Assembly: GCA_016795365.1 (NCBI GenBank)
Contig: JAEUHN010000032.1
Location: 1-64,000 of the forward strand
Reading direction: 5' to 3'
From: Verrucomicrobiaceae bacterium
GTDB lineage: Bacteria > Verrucomicrobiota > Verrucomicrobiia > Verrucomicrobiales > Verrucomicrobiaceae
DNA: 64,000 nucleotides
Shown here: positions 59,198 through 64,000 of the stretch, piece after piece
Position numbering within the stretch: position 1 is the stretch's first letter
Layout: the number at the start of each line of letters is the position of its first letter
The notes under the pieces: generated by a model
What the model was told of the DNA's origin: nothing
Seen by the model: only the letters and a program-made list of their open reading frames with translations
Database searches by the model: none
Made by a program: the position numbers and the translations under genes

Positions 59198-59269
59198 TAT
59201 CCCCGACAGGAATCGAACCTGTATTTAGAGTTTAGGAAACCCTCGTTCTATCCATTGAACTACGGGGAC
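59198..59269 (-). tRNA. tRNA-Arg(CCU)
   Basis: Minus-strand cloverleaf of 72 bases. Acceptor GTCCCCG pairs with CGGGGAT (one G-T pair), anticodon arm AGGGT-TTCCTAA-ACTCT has anticodon CCU, and the T-arm is CAGGTTCGATTCCTG. The discriminator is A and no CCA is encoded. An integrase gene begins 109 bases past its 5' end, so this gene marks the edge of a mobile island. Confidence 0.92.
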
Positions 59270-59377
59270 GGAAGACTTGATTTACAAGGAAATTGAGGCG
59301 GCTGGATGAGCTTTCATTTGCAAATTATACGTTCAAATTATACGGTAGGAGTCGGCAGAACCAAAACCGGCCACCCC

Positions 59378-60481
59378 ATGACGGAACCCACCAAGACTTG
59401 GACACCCACGAAGTATCCTCGGCTGTATAAGCACCGCTCCGGCACCTACTATGCAAGAGTCTCTGCCGGAGGCAAGGAGACGTGGCGCAGCCTCAAGACA
59501 AAGCTGCTTTCGGTTGCTCGCCAGGAGCTTGATGAGAAGCAGAAGGACGCGGAGCAACGCGCAGAACTCAACCCCGAGAAGCCGCTTGGGGAGAAGCTGA
59601 CCACCGCCGAAGCCTTCGTGATTCGTGAGAAGCAGATCGCCAACAACCCCGCCATCAAGAAGTCCACCAAGCACTACCTGTCTCAGATTATGTTAGCCCT
59701 CAAGCGCAGTTGGCCCACGCTGGAGCGCACCGAGTTGAGCAAGATCAGCGTAGAGGAGTGCGAGGCATGGGCGGGGCGTTGCGCCAAGCGCATGTCCCCC
59801 ACTCGATTTAACGCCATGCTCAGCATGGTGCGTTCTCTGTTTGACATTGCAATTCAGAAGGGATGCCGTCGCACCAATCCGGCAGCCAAGCTGAAACGTC
59901 TTCGTGTCCGCTTCAAGGAGCTGTCCCACATCCTTCCCAGCCGCTCGCAGTTCTCCGCCTATGTTCAGACCATTCGGGATGCAGGCGGTAGGTTCTCGAA
60001 TGATTGCGCCGACTATGTCGAGTTCTTGGCTTACACCGGAGTGAGGCGAGGAGAGGCACCGTGGATTCAGTGGCGTCACTGCGACTTTGCCAAGGGCGAG
60101 ATTGTCATTGAGGGCAATCCCGAGGACGGAACGAAGAACCACGAAGTCCGCCGCGTGCCCATGATTGCCGCCGTTCGAACCCTGCTTGAAAACATCCGCA
60201 AAGAACGCCCTTCATGCGCACCCACTGACAAGGTGCTGAGCGTCACGATGGCAAAGAACGCCATGGACCGCGCTGCTCAAAAAAATCAAATCGCCCGCTT
60301 CACTCATCACGATTTGCGGCATCTTTTCGCGACGGTTTGCATCGAGTCAGGCGTTGATATACCGACTGTCTCGAAGTGGCTTGGTCACAAGGACGGGGGA
60401 GCGCTCGCAATGAAGGTTTACGGCCATCTGCGGAATGAGCACTCGCTGGCTGCTGCGACGCGCGTGTCTTTCGCTGCTTGA
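59378..60481 (+). CDS. Tyrosine recombinase/integrase next to tRNA-Arg
   Basis: A 367-residue protein from the ATG at 59378; the frame is open 24 codons upstream. An N-terminal arm-binding region (RLYKHRSGTYYARVSAGGKETWRSLKTKLLS) resembles the AP2-like/arm-type domains of phage integrases. A core-binding domain covers residues about 80-170. The catalytic domain has YTGVRRGEA (Arg I), HHDLRHLFAT (H-x-x-R), WLGHKDG and the Tyr in MKVYGHL. It faces away from the tRNA. Probable integrase of the island. Confidence 0.9.
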   Translation: MTEPTKTWTPTKYPRLYKHRSGTYYARVSAGGKETWRSLKTKLLSVARQELDEKQKDAEQRAELNPEKPLGEKLTTAEAFVIREKQIANNPAIKKSTKHYLSQIMLALKRSWPTLERTELSKISVEECEAWAGRCAKRMSPTRFNAMLSMVRSLFDIAIQKGCRRTNPAAKLKRLRVRFKELSHILPSRSQFSAYVQTIRDAGGRFSNDCADYVEFLAYTGVRRGEAPWIQWRHCDFAKGEIVIEGNPEDGTKNHEVRRVPMIAAVRTLLENIRKERPSCAPTDKVLSVTMAKNAMDRAAQKNQIARFTHHDLRHLFATVCIESGVDIPTVSKWLGHKDGGALAMKVYGHLRNEHSLAAATRVSFAA

Positions 60482-60752
60482 CCGCCGACGCCCAGTTCTT
60501 CGCGCCAGACGACGTTTTGTTGCCCTTGGCACTGTCACTGCCAGGCTTGGGCTTCCTCACCTTCGCTCCGGCTCCGACGTAGCGCCCAGCCTCCTTCAAA
60601 AGACGATCCACCTCGCTCTTGGGAATCAGTGCGCGCCCCAGGTCAGTCACAGCCCAGACCTTTCCCGCATAAAGTTGCCGGTATGCCCAAGTGCGCTCCT
60701 TGCCAAACAAAGCGGCGAACTCAGTGGGCGTGTAGGTTACTTTGTCCGCCAT
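60300..60752 (-). CDS. Excisionase-like small HTH protein overlapping the integrase 3' end
   Basis: A 150-residue frame. The first half has a winged-helix/excisionase pattern: TYTPTEFAALFGKERTWAYRQLYAGKVWAVTDLGRALIPKSEVDRLLKEAGR, as in MerR-like Xis proteins. The C-terminal half is basic and low in structure (KVRKPKPGSDSAKGNKTSSGAKN...) and lies antisense to the end of the integrase gene, so its real extent is uncertain. Its 5' end is 35 bases from the left inverted repeat at 60788. Confidence 0.65.
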   Translation of the reverse strand: MADKVTYTPTEFAALFGKERTWAYRQLYAGKVWAVTDLGRALIPKSEVDRLLKEAGRYVGAGAKVRKPKPGSDSAKGNKTSSGAKNWASAVKQRKTRASQQPASAHSADGRKPSLRALPRPCDQATSRQSVYQRLTRCKPSRKDAANRDE

Positions 60753-60787
60753 GGGAGCTTTTCAAAGCGCTGTTGGACTATGAAACC

Positions 60788-60809
60788 GTTTCATGGGATT
60801 CTGTTTCAC
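60788..60809. repeat. Left 22-bp inverted repeat of the recombinase module
   Basis: Starts GTTTCATGGG and ends TCTGTTTCAC. An exact reverse complement lies at 61431-61452, on the far side of the recombinase gene. Immediately to its left is TGAAACCG, which makes the palindromic core TGAAAC-C-GTTTCA (60781-60793). Confidence 0.95.
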
Positions 60810-60851
60810 TACACTACAACGTCCGAACCGGTCATCAACGAGGAAATCCGA

Positions 60852-61418
60852 CTACTTCCACGTTCTTTGGATTAGAGTTCTCTCTTCGTCATCCCTTACG
60901 TCCAGATAGATGGCAGTAGTGGCCGATTGGGAATGGCCGAACCAAAGTTGCAGCAAGTTCAGTGGAATCTTAGCAATGGCTCCTCGTATTCCGAAAGCAT
61001 GTCGAAGCCCTTTTGCCGTGGCGTGAATACCAGTGATTTCCGCTGCGTTCATCACTCGCTTGATGATTCTCCAGCCGGTCGTTCGAGAGAACGCCCACAG
61101 TGGTCCTTCACCCCCTTGATCAACAAGATTTCGCAGGGCTGACAGCAATGAATTGGGCACCGGAATCCGCCTGAACTCCTTACGTTCACGCTTTTTCAGC
61201 GAGCGGATACGAATCACTCCAGTGGCATGATCGATGTCTTGGGCAGTCAGTGACAACGCCTCAGAAATTCTCATTCCAGTGTAGTAGATAGTCGTGCAGA
61301 AGAGCGCTTCAGAGCGGCACAATCGTCGGCAGCACTTCAAGAATCTTCGACCTTCCTCTTGGGTCATGTATTTGCGCCGTCCTTCAGGGTCATAGGCGCT
61401 GTAGTTCTTTCGGCTCAT
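60852..61418 (-). CDS. Short tyrosine recombinase enclosed by inverted repeats
   Basis: A 188-residue protein from the ATG at 61418, preceded by a strong Shine-Dalgarno GGAGGTGG (61423-61430). It consists almost only of the catalytic domain: YYTGMRISEALSL (Arg I), GLRHAFGIRG (LRH; the usual His before Arg is a Lys), LWFGHSQSATTAIYLDV (GH and Tyr). Small size and absence of an arm-binding domain resemble FimB/E-type inverters and integron-like recombinases. It is surrounded by perfect 22-bp inverted repeats, so its own segment is the likely substrate. Confidence 0.88.
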   Translation of the reverse strand: MSRKNYSAYDPEGRRKYMTQEEGRRFLKCCRRLCRSEALFCTTIYYTGMRISEALSLTAQDIDHATGVIRIRSLKKRERKEFRRIPVPNSLLSALRNLVDQGGEGPLWAFSRTTGWRIIKRVMNAAEITGIHATAKGLRHAFGIRGAIAKIPLNLLQLWFGHSQSATTAIYLDVRDDEERTLIQRTWK

Positions 61419-61430
61419 GGGTCCACCTCC

Positions 61431-61452
61431 GTGAAACAGAATCCCATGAAAC
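61431..61452. repeat. Right 22-bp inverted repeat, containing the start codon of the next gene
   Basis: Exact reverse complement of 60788-60809. The ATG of the secreted protein at 61446 lies inside it, and the recombinase Shine-Dalgarno ends just at its left edge. Confidence 0.95.
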
Positions 61453-62468
61453 TGGTTCACAAATCGTTAACGCCCTGCGCTTTGGTGGTCTGCCTGTTAG
61501 CTACATGCGCCATTGAGCCTACGACATGCTTTGCCCAAGAACTGATTCGCTTTGCGTCCTTCGATCCTACCAAGGGCTTCAAGCCAGCTCAAACCAACCT
61601 CACGGACATCTACCTTCAAATGGCCGCGAGCCTGGAATGCTACGGAAGTCCCGAGCCATACATCCGGCATATTCAGCGGGAGCACCAGCGCATTTCTTTT
61701 CTGTATGAGCAGAAGTCGGGAAAACCGCTCCCCAACCAGATGCCTTCCCACATGACGGAATCCTATATGGACAAGCTTGTTCAGAACTGGACCTCGCTCT
61801 CTCAGCCATTGAAGCTGGATGCTCTTGCCAAAGAAGCAGGACGCAGCGTCCGCGAGGCGATCTTGGGACCACGCATGACGGGAACAGTCGTCATTGAGAT
61901 TTTCAATCACCACCAAGCAGAGCTGGCCAAGCAGATGCGTGATGAGCCTCACGCGCCATGCAGCTTTGAACAACTCCAATCCCAACTTTCCACGATGCTT
62001 GCGTTTGATGTTTCACTGCCAGAAATGAATGGCAAGAAGCCCGAACGTGCTGAAGCAATTGTTGCCATCGTGGCTCAAGAAAAAACGCTTAGCGCGACTG
62101 AGCGTAAAGAATATGCAAGCCTGCTCAGCCATGACAAGTTCAGCAAAGCTGAGTTCACAGAACTCGACCATTTCTACAGCACTGCCCATGACAAACTCAC
62201 AGCAACGGGCAAAAGCGAGATGAGCAAACGTGTTTGGGCTGGCACACACCAAGCGGAGCCAGACCACACGCGCCTGGATGCGATCAACTCGGCTCAGGTT
62301 TTCCGAAGCGAACTTGCTGCGACGCTTGCAAGAATAGATGCTGTCGCCAAAAAAGAGAAGGCAGCGGTCATCAAGGAGGTTGTGACTGGAGTGTTTATTG
62401 ACCTTGGAACCTTGGCTCAGGCAGAGCTTGCAATCGCGATTCTGGAATCAGCGATAACCAAGCGTTAG
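61446..62468 (+). CDS. Secreted protein with a conserved island domain (shared with the gene at 62465)
   Basis: A 340-residue protein from the ATG at 61446, with a signal peptide (KSLTPCALVVCLLATCAIEPTTCFAQ). It is helical, with residues about 215-280 containing LSATERKEYASLLSHDKFSK and AEFTELDHFYSTAHDKL, followed by GKSEMSKRVWAGTHQAEPDHTRL. The same pattern occurs in the convergent gene at 62465-63322. No family recognised. The start codon lies in the right inverted repeat and lacks a Shine-Dalgarno, so expression may depend on the orientation of the recombinase segment. Confidence 0.7.
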   Translation: MKLVHKSLTPCALVVCLLATCAIEPTTCFAQELIRFASFDPTKGFKPAQTNLTDIYLQMAASLECYGSPEPYIRHIQREHQRISFLYEQKSGKPLPNQMPSHMTESYMDKLVQNWTSLSQPLKLDALAKEAGRSVREAILGPRMTGTVVIEIFNHHQAELAKQMRDEPHAPCSFEQLQSQLSTMLAFDVSLPEMNGKKPERAEAIVAIVAQEKTLSATERKEYASLLSHDKFSKAEFTELDHFYSTAHDKLTATGKSEMSKRVWAGTHQAEPDHTRLDAINSAQVFRSELAATLARIDAVAKKEKAAVIKEVVTGVFIDLGTLAQAELAIAILESAITKR

Positions 62469-63322
62469 TCTCCAAGAGCTTTTGTGCTCGCAGCGTTGCC
62501 TTTGAGTTGTGGCAGTGGAGGGGTGAGATTGGTCAGCAGCAAATCATCTGGCTTTAGGTCAGCCTCACCGGCAGCATGGGAGACTTTCGCGTTAGATTCA
62601 GGGCTTGGCGCGGCTGCAATGTGGTTCAAGACCTTTGATACTTCGCTTGGCGAATTCAACGTTACCGATTCCGACTTCACGGCTTCTGACCGGAGTGAAA
62701 CATTTTCCGTGAAAGACGGCCGCGCTAGAATTTTGAAAGCCGCATCTCTTCTTTGGCCCTCCCATGCATCTTTGAAGTCGTTGCGGTCTTGTGGCTCAAT
62801 TTGCCGGAGGTTTTGGTCTCTGCCTTCCTCGTGGCGCAGGACTTCATACAGTCGTTGCGCTTCCCTCTCTTTGACGGCTCCAGGCAGTTCATTGAACTGA
62901 TACTCACCACGCCGCACGCCTTCCCACACACGATGGCTCATTTCTGCTTTGCCGTCATCACTCAAGCGATCCCATGTGTTCGTGTAGAACCTATCCAAAC
63001 GATCAAACATTGTTTTGGTGAAGAACTCGCATTGGAGGAAGGACGCGAATTCCTGTTTCTCTGAGAGGGACAACGCAGCTTCACGCTCGGCAGCGGCAAT
63101 CGCCGCAGTCGCAACCTCTTGCTCATGCTTGCGTTCAAATTCTCGTTGTTCTCTTTCCTCGGAGCGTTCGACACCGACAAGCTGACCTTGCGCATCCGCA
63201 AGGGCTTTCACCAGCATGCTGGTGGTTGCGGCGCTCACGCCGCCACCAAGAAAAATACTCATTTGCAAGTCACTGATCAGTTTGCTGAGCCGATGCAGTT
63301 CAATCTTGTTTGTTTCCGACAT
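62465..63322 (-). CDS. Cytoplasmic protein with the same island domain
   Basis: A 285-residue protein from the ATG at 63322, with a GGGAGG ribosome site upstream. Order: an N-terminal hydrophobic patch (LQMSIFLGGGVSAATTSMLVKALADA), a Glu/Arg-rich coiled-coil-like stretch (SEEREQREFERKHEQEV), then the shared domain (LSLSEKQEFASFLQCEFFTK, FDRLDRFYTNTWDRLSDDGK, AEMSHRVWEGVRRGEYQFNEL), and a low-complexity tail ending LPQLKGNAASTKAL. It overlaps the convergent secreted gene by 4 bases. No known family. Confidence 0.7.
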   Translation of the reverse strand: MSETNKIELHRLSKLISDLQMSIFLGGGVSAATTSMLVKALADAQGQLVGVERSEEREQREFERKHEQEVATAAIAAAEREAALSLSEKQEFASFLQCEFFTKTMFDRLDRFYTNTWDRLSDDGKAEMSHRVWEGVRRGEYQFNELPGAVKEREAQRLYEVLRHEEGRDQNLRQIEPQDRNDFKDAWEGQRRDAAFKILARPSFTENVSLRSEAVKSESVTLNSPSEVSKVLNHIAAAPSPESNAKVSHAAGEADLKPDDLLLTNLTPPLPQLKGNAASTKALGD

Positions 63323-63433: not shown

Positions 63434-64000
63434 CTAGTAGCTTACTTTGAAAGTTGGCGAGTCTTCTGGCTTCGTTCTTCTCCGATCATAGAGGCGCGTG
63501 GTGGAAATGTTGGCATGCCCCAGCCATTCCTGAACTTTGGCGATGTCCGCCTCGTGATCGAGCGCATTGGTGGCCGCAGTGGCCCGCAGACCATGCACAC
63601 AGACCGCGCGGGGTTCGAGGCCGAGTTGACGCGCATACTTGCGCACCACGTCCTTGTAAATGCCGTGCCCCGTCAGGGCTTTTTCGAGCGATCCTGACGA
63701 GTTCTTGATCGGGCGAAAGAGTGCGCTCTCGCCTTTGTTTCCATGACCTGAACGCTCCAAGTATTCGCTGATTCGTTGCGAGCTGTGGGGATGCACCGGC
63801 ACGAACCGAATCTTGCCGCCTTTGCCCTGCACTCTGAAGTGCATCACACCACGGCGTGATTGCAGATCGCCGACCGCGAGGGAGCAAAGTTCCGCTCGCC
63901 GCAGACCATGAAACAAAAGCACCGAGAGAATCGCACGGTCACGTAGTCCCTTGAGCGTATCACCGCGAGGCGCTTCCAGAATGGACTTCGCCTCCGCGTC
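63434..64000 (-). CDS. Tyrosine recombinase, XerC/D-like, cut by the window edge
   Basis: At least 188 residues; the frame runs off the right edge, so the N-terminus is missing. The catalytic domain is complete: RAILSVLLFHGLRRAELCSL (Arg I), KGGKIRFVPVHP (Lys strand), CVHGLRATAATNAL (H-x-L-R) and WLGHANISTTRLYDRR (GH, Tyr). It is the third tyrosine recombinase within 4.7 kb. Its upstream part beyond 64000 would decide its length and family. Confidence 0.9.
   Translation of the reverse strand, partial: DAEAKSILEAPRGDTLKGLRDRAILSVLLFHGLRRAELCSLAVGDLQSRRGVMHFRVQGKGGKIRFVPVHPHSSQRISEYLERSGHGNKGESALFRPIKNSSGSLEKALTGHGIYKDVVRKYARQLGLEPRAVCVHGLRATAATNALDHEADIAKVQEWLGHANISTTRLYDRRRTKPEDSPTFKVSY

Follow-up and report, generated by a model that had tools for sequence, protein, structure and literature searches.

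The window, the whole 64,000-nucleotide stretch analyzed here, contains towards its right end part of a mobile island. A tRNA-Arg(CCT) gene (59198-59269, reverse strand) marks the island edge, and next to it lies the island integrase, a tyrosine recombinase of 391 residues (59306-60481, forward strand). To its right are an excisionase-like gene encoding a 150-residue HTH_17 protein (60300-60752, reverse strand), a small tyrosine recombinase gene that we call REC (60852-61418, reverse strand), a gene for an exported helical protein of 340 residues (SEC; 61446-62468, forward strand), a gene convergent with it that encodes a cytoplasmic protein (CC; 62465-63322, reverse strand), and a XerC/D-like recombinase of the island (63434-64000, reverse strand) that continues to 64459, beyond the window. 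ArdC, TrwC relaxase and T4SS-DNA_transf/TraG-D_C coupling-protein domains are encoded on the same contig and, with the integrase and the tRNA-Arg gene, make an integrative mobilizable or conjugative element the probable host; an integrase, a relaxase and a coupling protein, as such an element would carry, are all present. A search of the contig for att repeats of the tRNA-Arg region of at least 16 bp gave none, and the contig seems to stop before the island does. Beyond the window the island continues (contig C13 of G000, 64000-104860, L019-L021; G numbers denote genomes) with a ParA-like gene in addition to ArdC, the TrwC relaxase and the coupling protein, and RHS-like reading frames recur at 66981-74354. 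We note in addition that the excisionase-like and integrase genes share about 180 bp (60300-60481) at their 3′ ends, on opposite strands, an arrangement also seen in G003 and G106.

The predicted SEC product consists of an N-terminal membrane or signal segment and an all-helical body (a confident model, pLDDT 83); it has no fold match in the PDB at E<0.001 and no convincing match in Pfam, NCBIfam, PHROG or PADLOC. CC is a conserved partner that follows SEC in most loci, and a middle domain is common to CC and some SEC proteins. Repeated palindromic, operator-like sequences of the GGAACAATGTTC type precede SEC in G008 and G024 (L095 6048-6450, L096 5965-6380).

The original prediction for this region described perfect 22-bp inverted repeats enclosing only a tyrosine recombinase, with a start codon lacking a Shine-Dalgarno sequence inside the right repeat and a xis-like gene reading away from the left one, and these elements are all borne out. 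The segment at 60788-60809 (GTTTCATGGGATTCTGTTTCAC) is the exact reverse complement of that at 61431-61452 (GTGAAACAGAATCCCATGAAAC), and the two enclose a single gene, REC, whose 188-residue product contains a Phage_integrase domain (Pfam, E 3.9e-21). The right repeat contains the SEC ATG (61446), which is immediately preceded by CCACCTCCGTGAAACAGAATCCC and lacks a Shine-Dalgarno sequence, and the ATG of the excisionase-like gene is 28 bp beyond the left site, facing the outward promoter predicted below. Extending the repeats to 29 nt (60781-60809 and 61431-61459, 93% identity) gives the longest inverted pair between positions 59500 and 63000, and the pair occurs only once in the whole 6.74-Mb assembly. 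Judging from five more genomes in which the same repeats flank an orthologous gene at a spacing of 620-622 nt, the pair is not a product of chance.

Comparison with these relatives resolves each repeat into a 28-bp site with two 11-bp arms around a 6-bp spacer. The XIS-side site (60781-60808, reverse strand) has the arms TGAAACCGTTT and ATTCTGTTTCA and the spacer CATGGG (60792-60797), and the SEC-side site (61432-61459, forward strand) has the arms TGAAACAGAAT and AAACTGGTTCA and the spacer CCCATG (61443-61448), the last three bases of which are the SEC start codon. In all six genomes of the window's family that have the unit, the SEC start is likewise inside the spacer. It had been proposed that a TGAAAC/GTTTCA palindrome forms the core site, and this part of the prediction does not stand: the 13-bp palindrome TGAAACCGTTTCA (60781-60793) merely spans the outer arm and spacer of the 11-6-11 site.

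Inverted sites built as TGAAACAGAAT-spacer-ATTCTGTTTCA, or on a variant of this pattern, are present at most loci with a REC homologue. Among the 26 loci for which both sites could be identified, the central 6 bp of the paired sites show no mismatches in 156 positions, compared with 63 of 543 in the arms; in three loci (G139c, G211 and G180) there are 6-9 arm mismatches, yet the spacers are identical. The spacer count is somewhat favored by the procedure, as the 3′ site of some diverged pairs was recognized partly by its spacer match. From one locus to another the spacers vary (CATGGG, GCTAGT, GCAGGG, AGACC, ACGC and others). A crossover region that is identical within a locus and not among loci is a signature of strand exchange by tyrosine recombinases.

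The REC active-site residues are R, K, a lysine replacing the box-II histidine, R, H, H and Y, so that the catalytic set is complete, and the R, K, R, H, H and Y residues are invariant across 34 REC homologues. The gene is under purifying selection, with dN of 0.07, dS of 0.80 and dN/dS of about 0.09 in comparison with G003. The NCBIfam model for tyrosine-type DNA invertases PRK09871 matches REC with an E-value of 5.7e-9 and only 36 bits, against a cut-off of 222, and PRK09870 gives 22 bits against a cut-off of 221; REC scores so far under the PRK09871 cut-off that it is not a FimB/E equivalog. Its best relatives of solved structure, by sequence, are 4a8e, 5dcf, 1a0p and 5hxy. The box-II histidine of most tyrosine recombinases is a lysine or arginine in all 34 homologues (KGLRH in the window's REC). 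The REC start is separated from the SEC-side site by a leader (61419-61431, reverse strand) that carries a GGAGGTG ribosome-binding site. In the loci of the window's family, the window included, no promoter for REC was found on this side, and an external promoter upstream of the SEC-side site that could drive REC is present in some loci of a second family, f2 (G134, G155, G162a and G162b).

We surveyed the window's family (f1), two other families of the same order (f2 and f3), and more distant genomes. REC is present in six of 68 genomes of the window's family, its own genome counted, and the five relatives encode proteins 68-89% identical to the window's REC; all five have the site-REC-site unit with SEC alongside, and most also have the excisionase-like gene. 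REC homologues are present in 20 of 387 sampled genomes of the order, with four more genomes of the class recovered through a phylum-wide sample, and SEC is found in 15 of the 387, in 13 of which REC adjoins it. Further family-level searches of f2 and f3 gave no additional loci; viral contigs contained neither REC relatives nor the site pattern, and phage records yielded only remote integrases. Homologues of about 45% identity are encoded near parA/rep genes on the Acetobacteraceae plasmids NZ_CP029178 and NZ_CP134884 (L062, L064) and are possibly resolvases. Flanking inverted repeats were absent around the three such plasmid homologues that were checked, which suggests that the plasmid genes do not share the layout of the switch. 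In most f2 loci a conserved 74-residue protein of unknown function (MTI..IIGENGP..E.CNGG.CPA) is encoded divergently from REC, in the position that SEC occupies in f1 and f3 (L052-L060; for example L056 4676-4972). Large co-directional genes that are type I restriction-like follow 260-450 bp downstream of the unit's outward end in G134 (L055 1810-4869) and G136 (L060 1608-4870), raising the possibility of a phase-variable restriction system; these genes were named by reading the sequence, with no family search.

Evidence that the segment has inverted comes from G003, which belongs to the same genus and is, according to the tree, the window's closest relative. Between its 622-bp segment and that of the window, identity is 79% in inverted and 33% in direct comparison, whereas the 600-bp flanks are collinear, with the left flank 63% identical in direct and 36% in inverted comparison and the right flank 57% and 38%, respectively. 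Four of the five f1 relatives share the window's arrangement, with the 5′ end of REC beside SEC, and G003 is the inverted one. In both orientations the outer arm TGGTTCA keeps to SEC and the inner arm TGAAACAGAAT keeps to REC, a partition that is expected if crossover occurs inside the spacer. The flip happened on a short branch, given the close relationship of the two genomes. The two orientations have been seen only between sister genomes, not within one population, the G003 assembly is fragmented and probably metagenome-assembled, and since the opposite orientation is found in only one locus with both SEC and REC, a rare historical flip remains possible.

In most loci the interval from the REC stop codon to the 3′ site contains a promoter-like sequence that points outward. 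In the window it lies at 60811-60838 on the reverse strand, with a -35 element TTGATG (60833-60838), a 16-nt spacer and a -10 element TAGTGT (60811-60816) that is 2 bp from the site; in most f1 loci, likewise, about 2 bp separate the end of the -10 element from the site. Across 22 loci the outward score exceeds both that of the reverse strand (Wilcoxon p 1.5e-4) and that of shuffled sequences, and because the loci are related these pooled p values are optimistic. The window's own copy matches weakly, with p 0.11 in the comparison with shuffles, and the stronger matches of relatives include TTGAGA-17-TACAAT in G003 and TTGAGA-17-TATTAT in G013. The promoter-like sequence faces the excisionase-like gene in the window and SEC in G003, from which we predict that SEC is OFF in the window's orientation and ON in that of G003. 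All of these promoters are matches to consensus sequences and there are no RNA data, but a conserved outward promoter at the 3′ end of REC is the likely mechanism of the switch. In the G003 orientation the SEC start codon is 16 bp after the -10 element, so that transcription of SEC, which is itself inferred, would give a very short mRNA leader; such a leader fits the absence of a Shine-Dalgarno sequence, although this too is an inference.

We think it probable that the unit at 60781-61459 is a self-encoded inversion switch, within which catalysis by REC, activity of the promoter and regulation of SEC and the excisionase-like gene are inferred. REC would bind the two inverted 28-bp sites and exchange strands within the 6-bp spacer, flipping its own gene together with a promoter that sits just inside the segment, beside the 3′ end of REC, and transcribes outward across the adjacent site. 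In the window's orientation this promoter would be aimed at the excisionase-like gene (leftward from 60752), leaving SEC (61446) without a promoter, and in the orientation of G003 it would start a short-leader SEC mRNA. The SEC ATG, being part of the spacer, would therefore be restored intact after each inversion. The invertible switch originally predicted is thus largely supported, by the inversion in G003, the spacer identity of 26 site pairs, the catalytic residues of 34 homologues and the dN/dS of REC; the prediction had pointed to related genomes as the place to look for the opposite orientation, and it was there, with collinear flanks, that it was found. The outward promoter as the likely mechanism, the position of the ATG in the crossover spacer itself and the excisionase-like gene as the alternative target go beyond that prediction. 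As far as comparison of genomes can support it, an inversion unit is well supported; ongoing switching and an effect on SEC or the excisionase-like gene remain unshown.

Several other explanations deserve consideration. The unit is compact, homologous units are found in unrelated contexts in other families, and some of them enclose cargo genes, all of which might be expected of a minimal mobile element, a recombinase with terminal inverted repeats, that inserts elsewhere and for which G003 represents a second orientation of insertion. The unit is single-copy in its genome, however, neither a target duplication nor an empty site has been seen, the outer arm remains with the flank, and sites that are inverted rather than direct yield inversion and not excision. 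In loci that have both SEC and REC the unit is in a fixed position, with the SEC start in or next to a site, and since it is at the same place beside SEC in every such locus we regard cut-and-paste movement as very unlikely. The orientation of the sites also bears on the proposal that REC serves the island as a resolvase or dimer-resolution recombinase, with the inverted sites being operator-like binding sites. The plasmid homologues of about 45% identity, which are beside parA/rep and without flanking inverted repeats, speak for such a function, but resolution requires direct sites and the enclosed segment is inverted in a relative, so that we give this proposal hardly any weight.

It could also be that the window and G003 preserve two old alternative states of a switch that is dead in most lineages, in keeping with the orientation shared by all loci but one and with the window's weak outward promoter. 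A relic of this kind is difficult to reconcile with purifying selection on REC, with catalytic residues kept in 34 homologues, with spacers that are identical between copies despite arm drift, or with a flip on the short branch between closest relatives, and we consider it quite unlikely. Somewhat less easily set aside is the suggestion that REC inverts the segment but that what matters is REC itself or the excisionase-like gene, through control of island excision, with SEC being incidental. Of seven loci checked, six have the excisionase-like start no more than about 65 bp beyond the site, and in five of these six, all except G003, that gene is the one faced by the outward promoter. Nevertheless, the partner retained in two families is SEC, whose start is within or close to the site, whereas REC has no adjacent excisionase-like gene in G011 and in most loci of f3. 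Moreover, in two of the 15 SEC genomes (G008 and G024), in which no REC was found, an XRE-type HTH gene (a Pfam HTH_3 match in G008) adjoins SEC and not the excisionase-like gene. A putative repressor gene in the place of the REC unit argues that the role of the unit at that position is control of SEC, and an exclusive role in excision seems to us rather unlikely.

If the unit is an inversion switch, its relatives may have wider roles. In four genomes of Verrucomicrobiota the sites are farther apart and enclose REC together with genes that match models of anti-phage systems: LmuA/B/C-type genes (Lamassu, ABC-3C) in G155 (L056 4942-9480), GajA and GajB (Gabija) in G162 (L057 4954 to G162:C41:263842, L107), Ppl in G184 and PDC-S01 in G139, with L050 1811-5584 and L044 3701-5591 listed for the last two segments. 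In G155 and G162 promoter-like sequence abuts the outer side of the REC-proximal site, so that inversion could swap REC and the defense genes in front of this outside promoter, a prediction that, like the rest of this picture, is made from sequence alone. Complete anti-phage systems inside segments with the same sites offer a testable route to phase-variable defense. It is possible, although we would not yet call it probable, that a family of self-inverting cassettes on islands across the Verrucomicrobiota selects which neighbor is expressed, that in conjugative-type islands the alternatives of an excisionase-like and an exported protein correspond to leaving as against staying and display, and that whole defense systems carried by the segments of relatives are phase-variable. 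This suggests that islands may choose stochastically between mobility-related and exported-protein states.

In an open-access literature search we found no description of a switch of this kind in the Verrucomicrobiota, which does not prove that none exists. The cps1 inverton of Akkermansia is an invertible element in the same phylum that controls a surface product, with both orientations observed in reads (PMC13343947). It differs from the REC unit in its repeat motif (CGGATT..AATCCG) and its locus, and the main text of that report names no recombinase. REC shares its fold family with the catalytic domains of XerA, XerC and XerD, unlike which it has no N-terminal core-binding domain and has lysine or arginine in place of the box-II histidine.

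The Hin protein of Salmonella is a serine recombinase that acts at 26-bp hix sites with a Fis-bound enhancer. As in the Hin/H-segment, REC is inside its own segment between inverted sites, with promoter-like sequence at the end pointing outward, a site and REC layout found at 26 loci; unlike Hin, the REC unit has a tyrosine recombinase, 28-bp sites with 6-bp spacers, a location on a mobile island and a target start codon in the spacer. Hin has been named as the example of the recombinases that are occasionally encoded inside the segment they invert (PMC5903667). If our interpretation is correct, the unit is a tyrosine-enzyme counterpart of Hin, carried by mobile islands in a phylum that has been little studied, and its regulated start codon is within the crossover region. 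The similarities to fimS and its recombinases FimB and FimE are of another type, namely a tyrosine recombinase reduced to a catalytic domain of about 190-200 residues, short inverted sites and, as predicted for the REC unit, an invertible promoter that controls an exported product; fimS is 314 bp long (PMC9993118) and, unlike the REC segment, contains no recombinase genes. With a Hin-like layout, a fim-like enzyme, scores below the invertase cut-offs and lysine or arginine in box II, the REC unit would work like both of these systems while being a member of neither.
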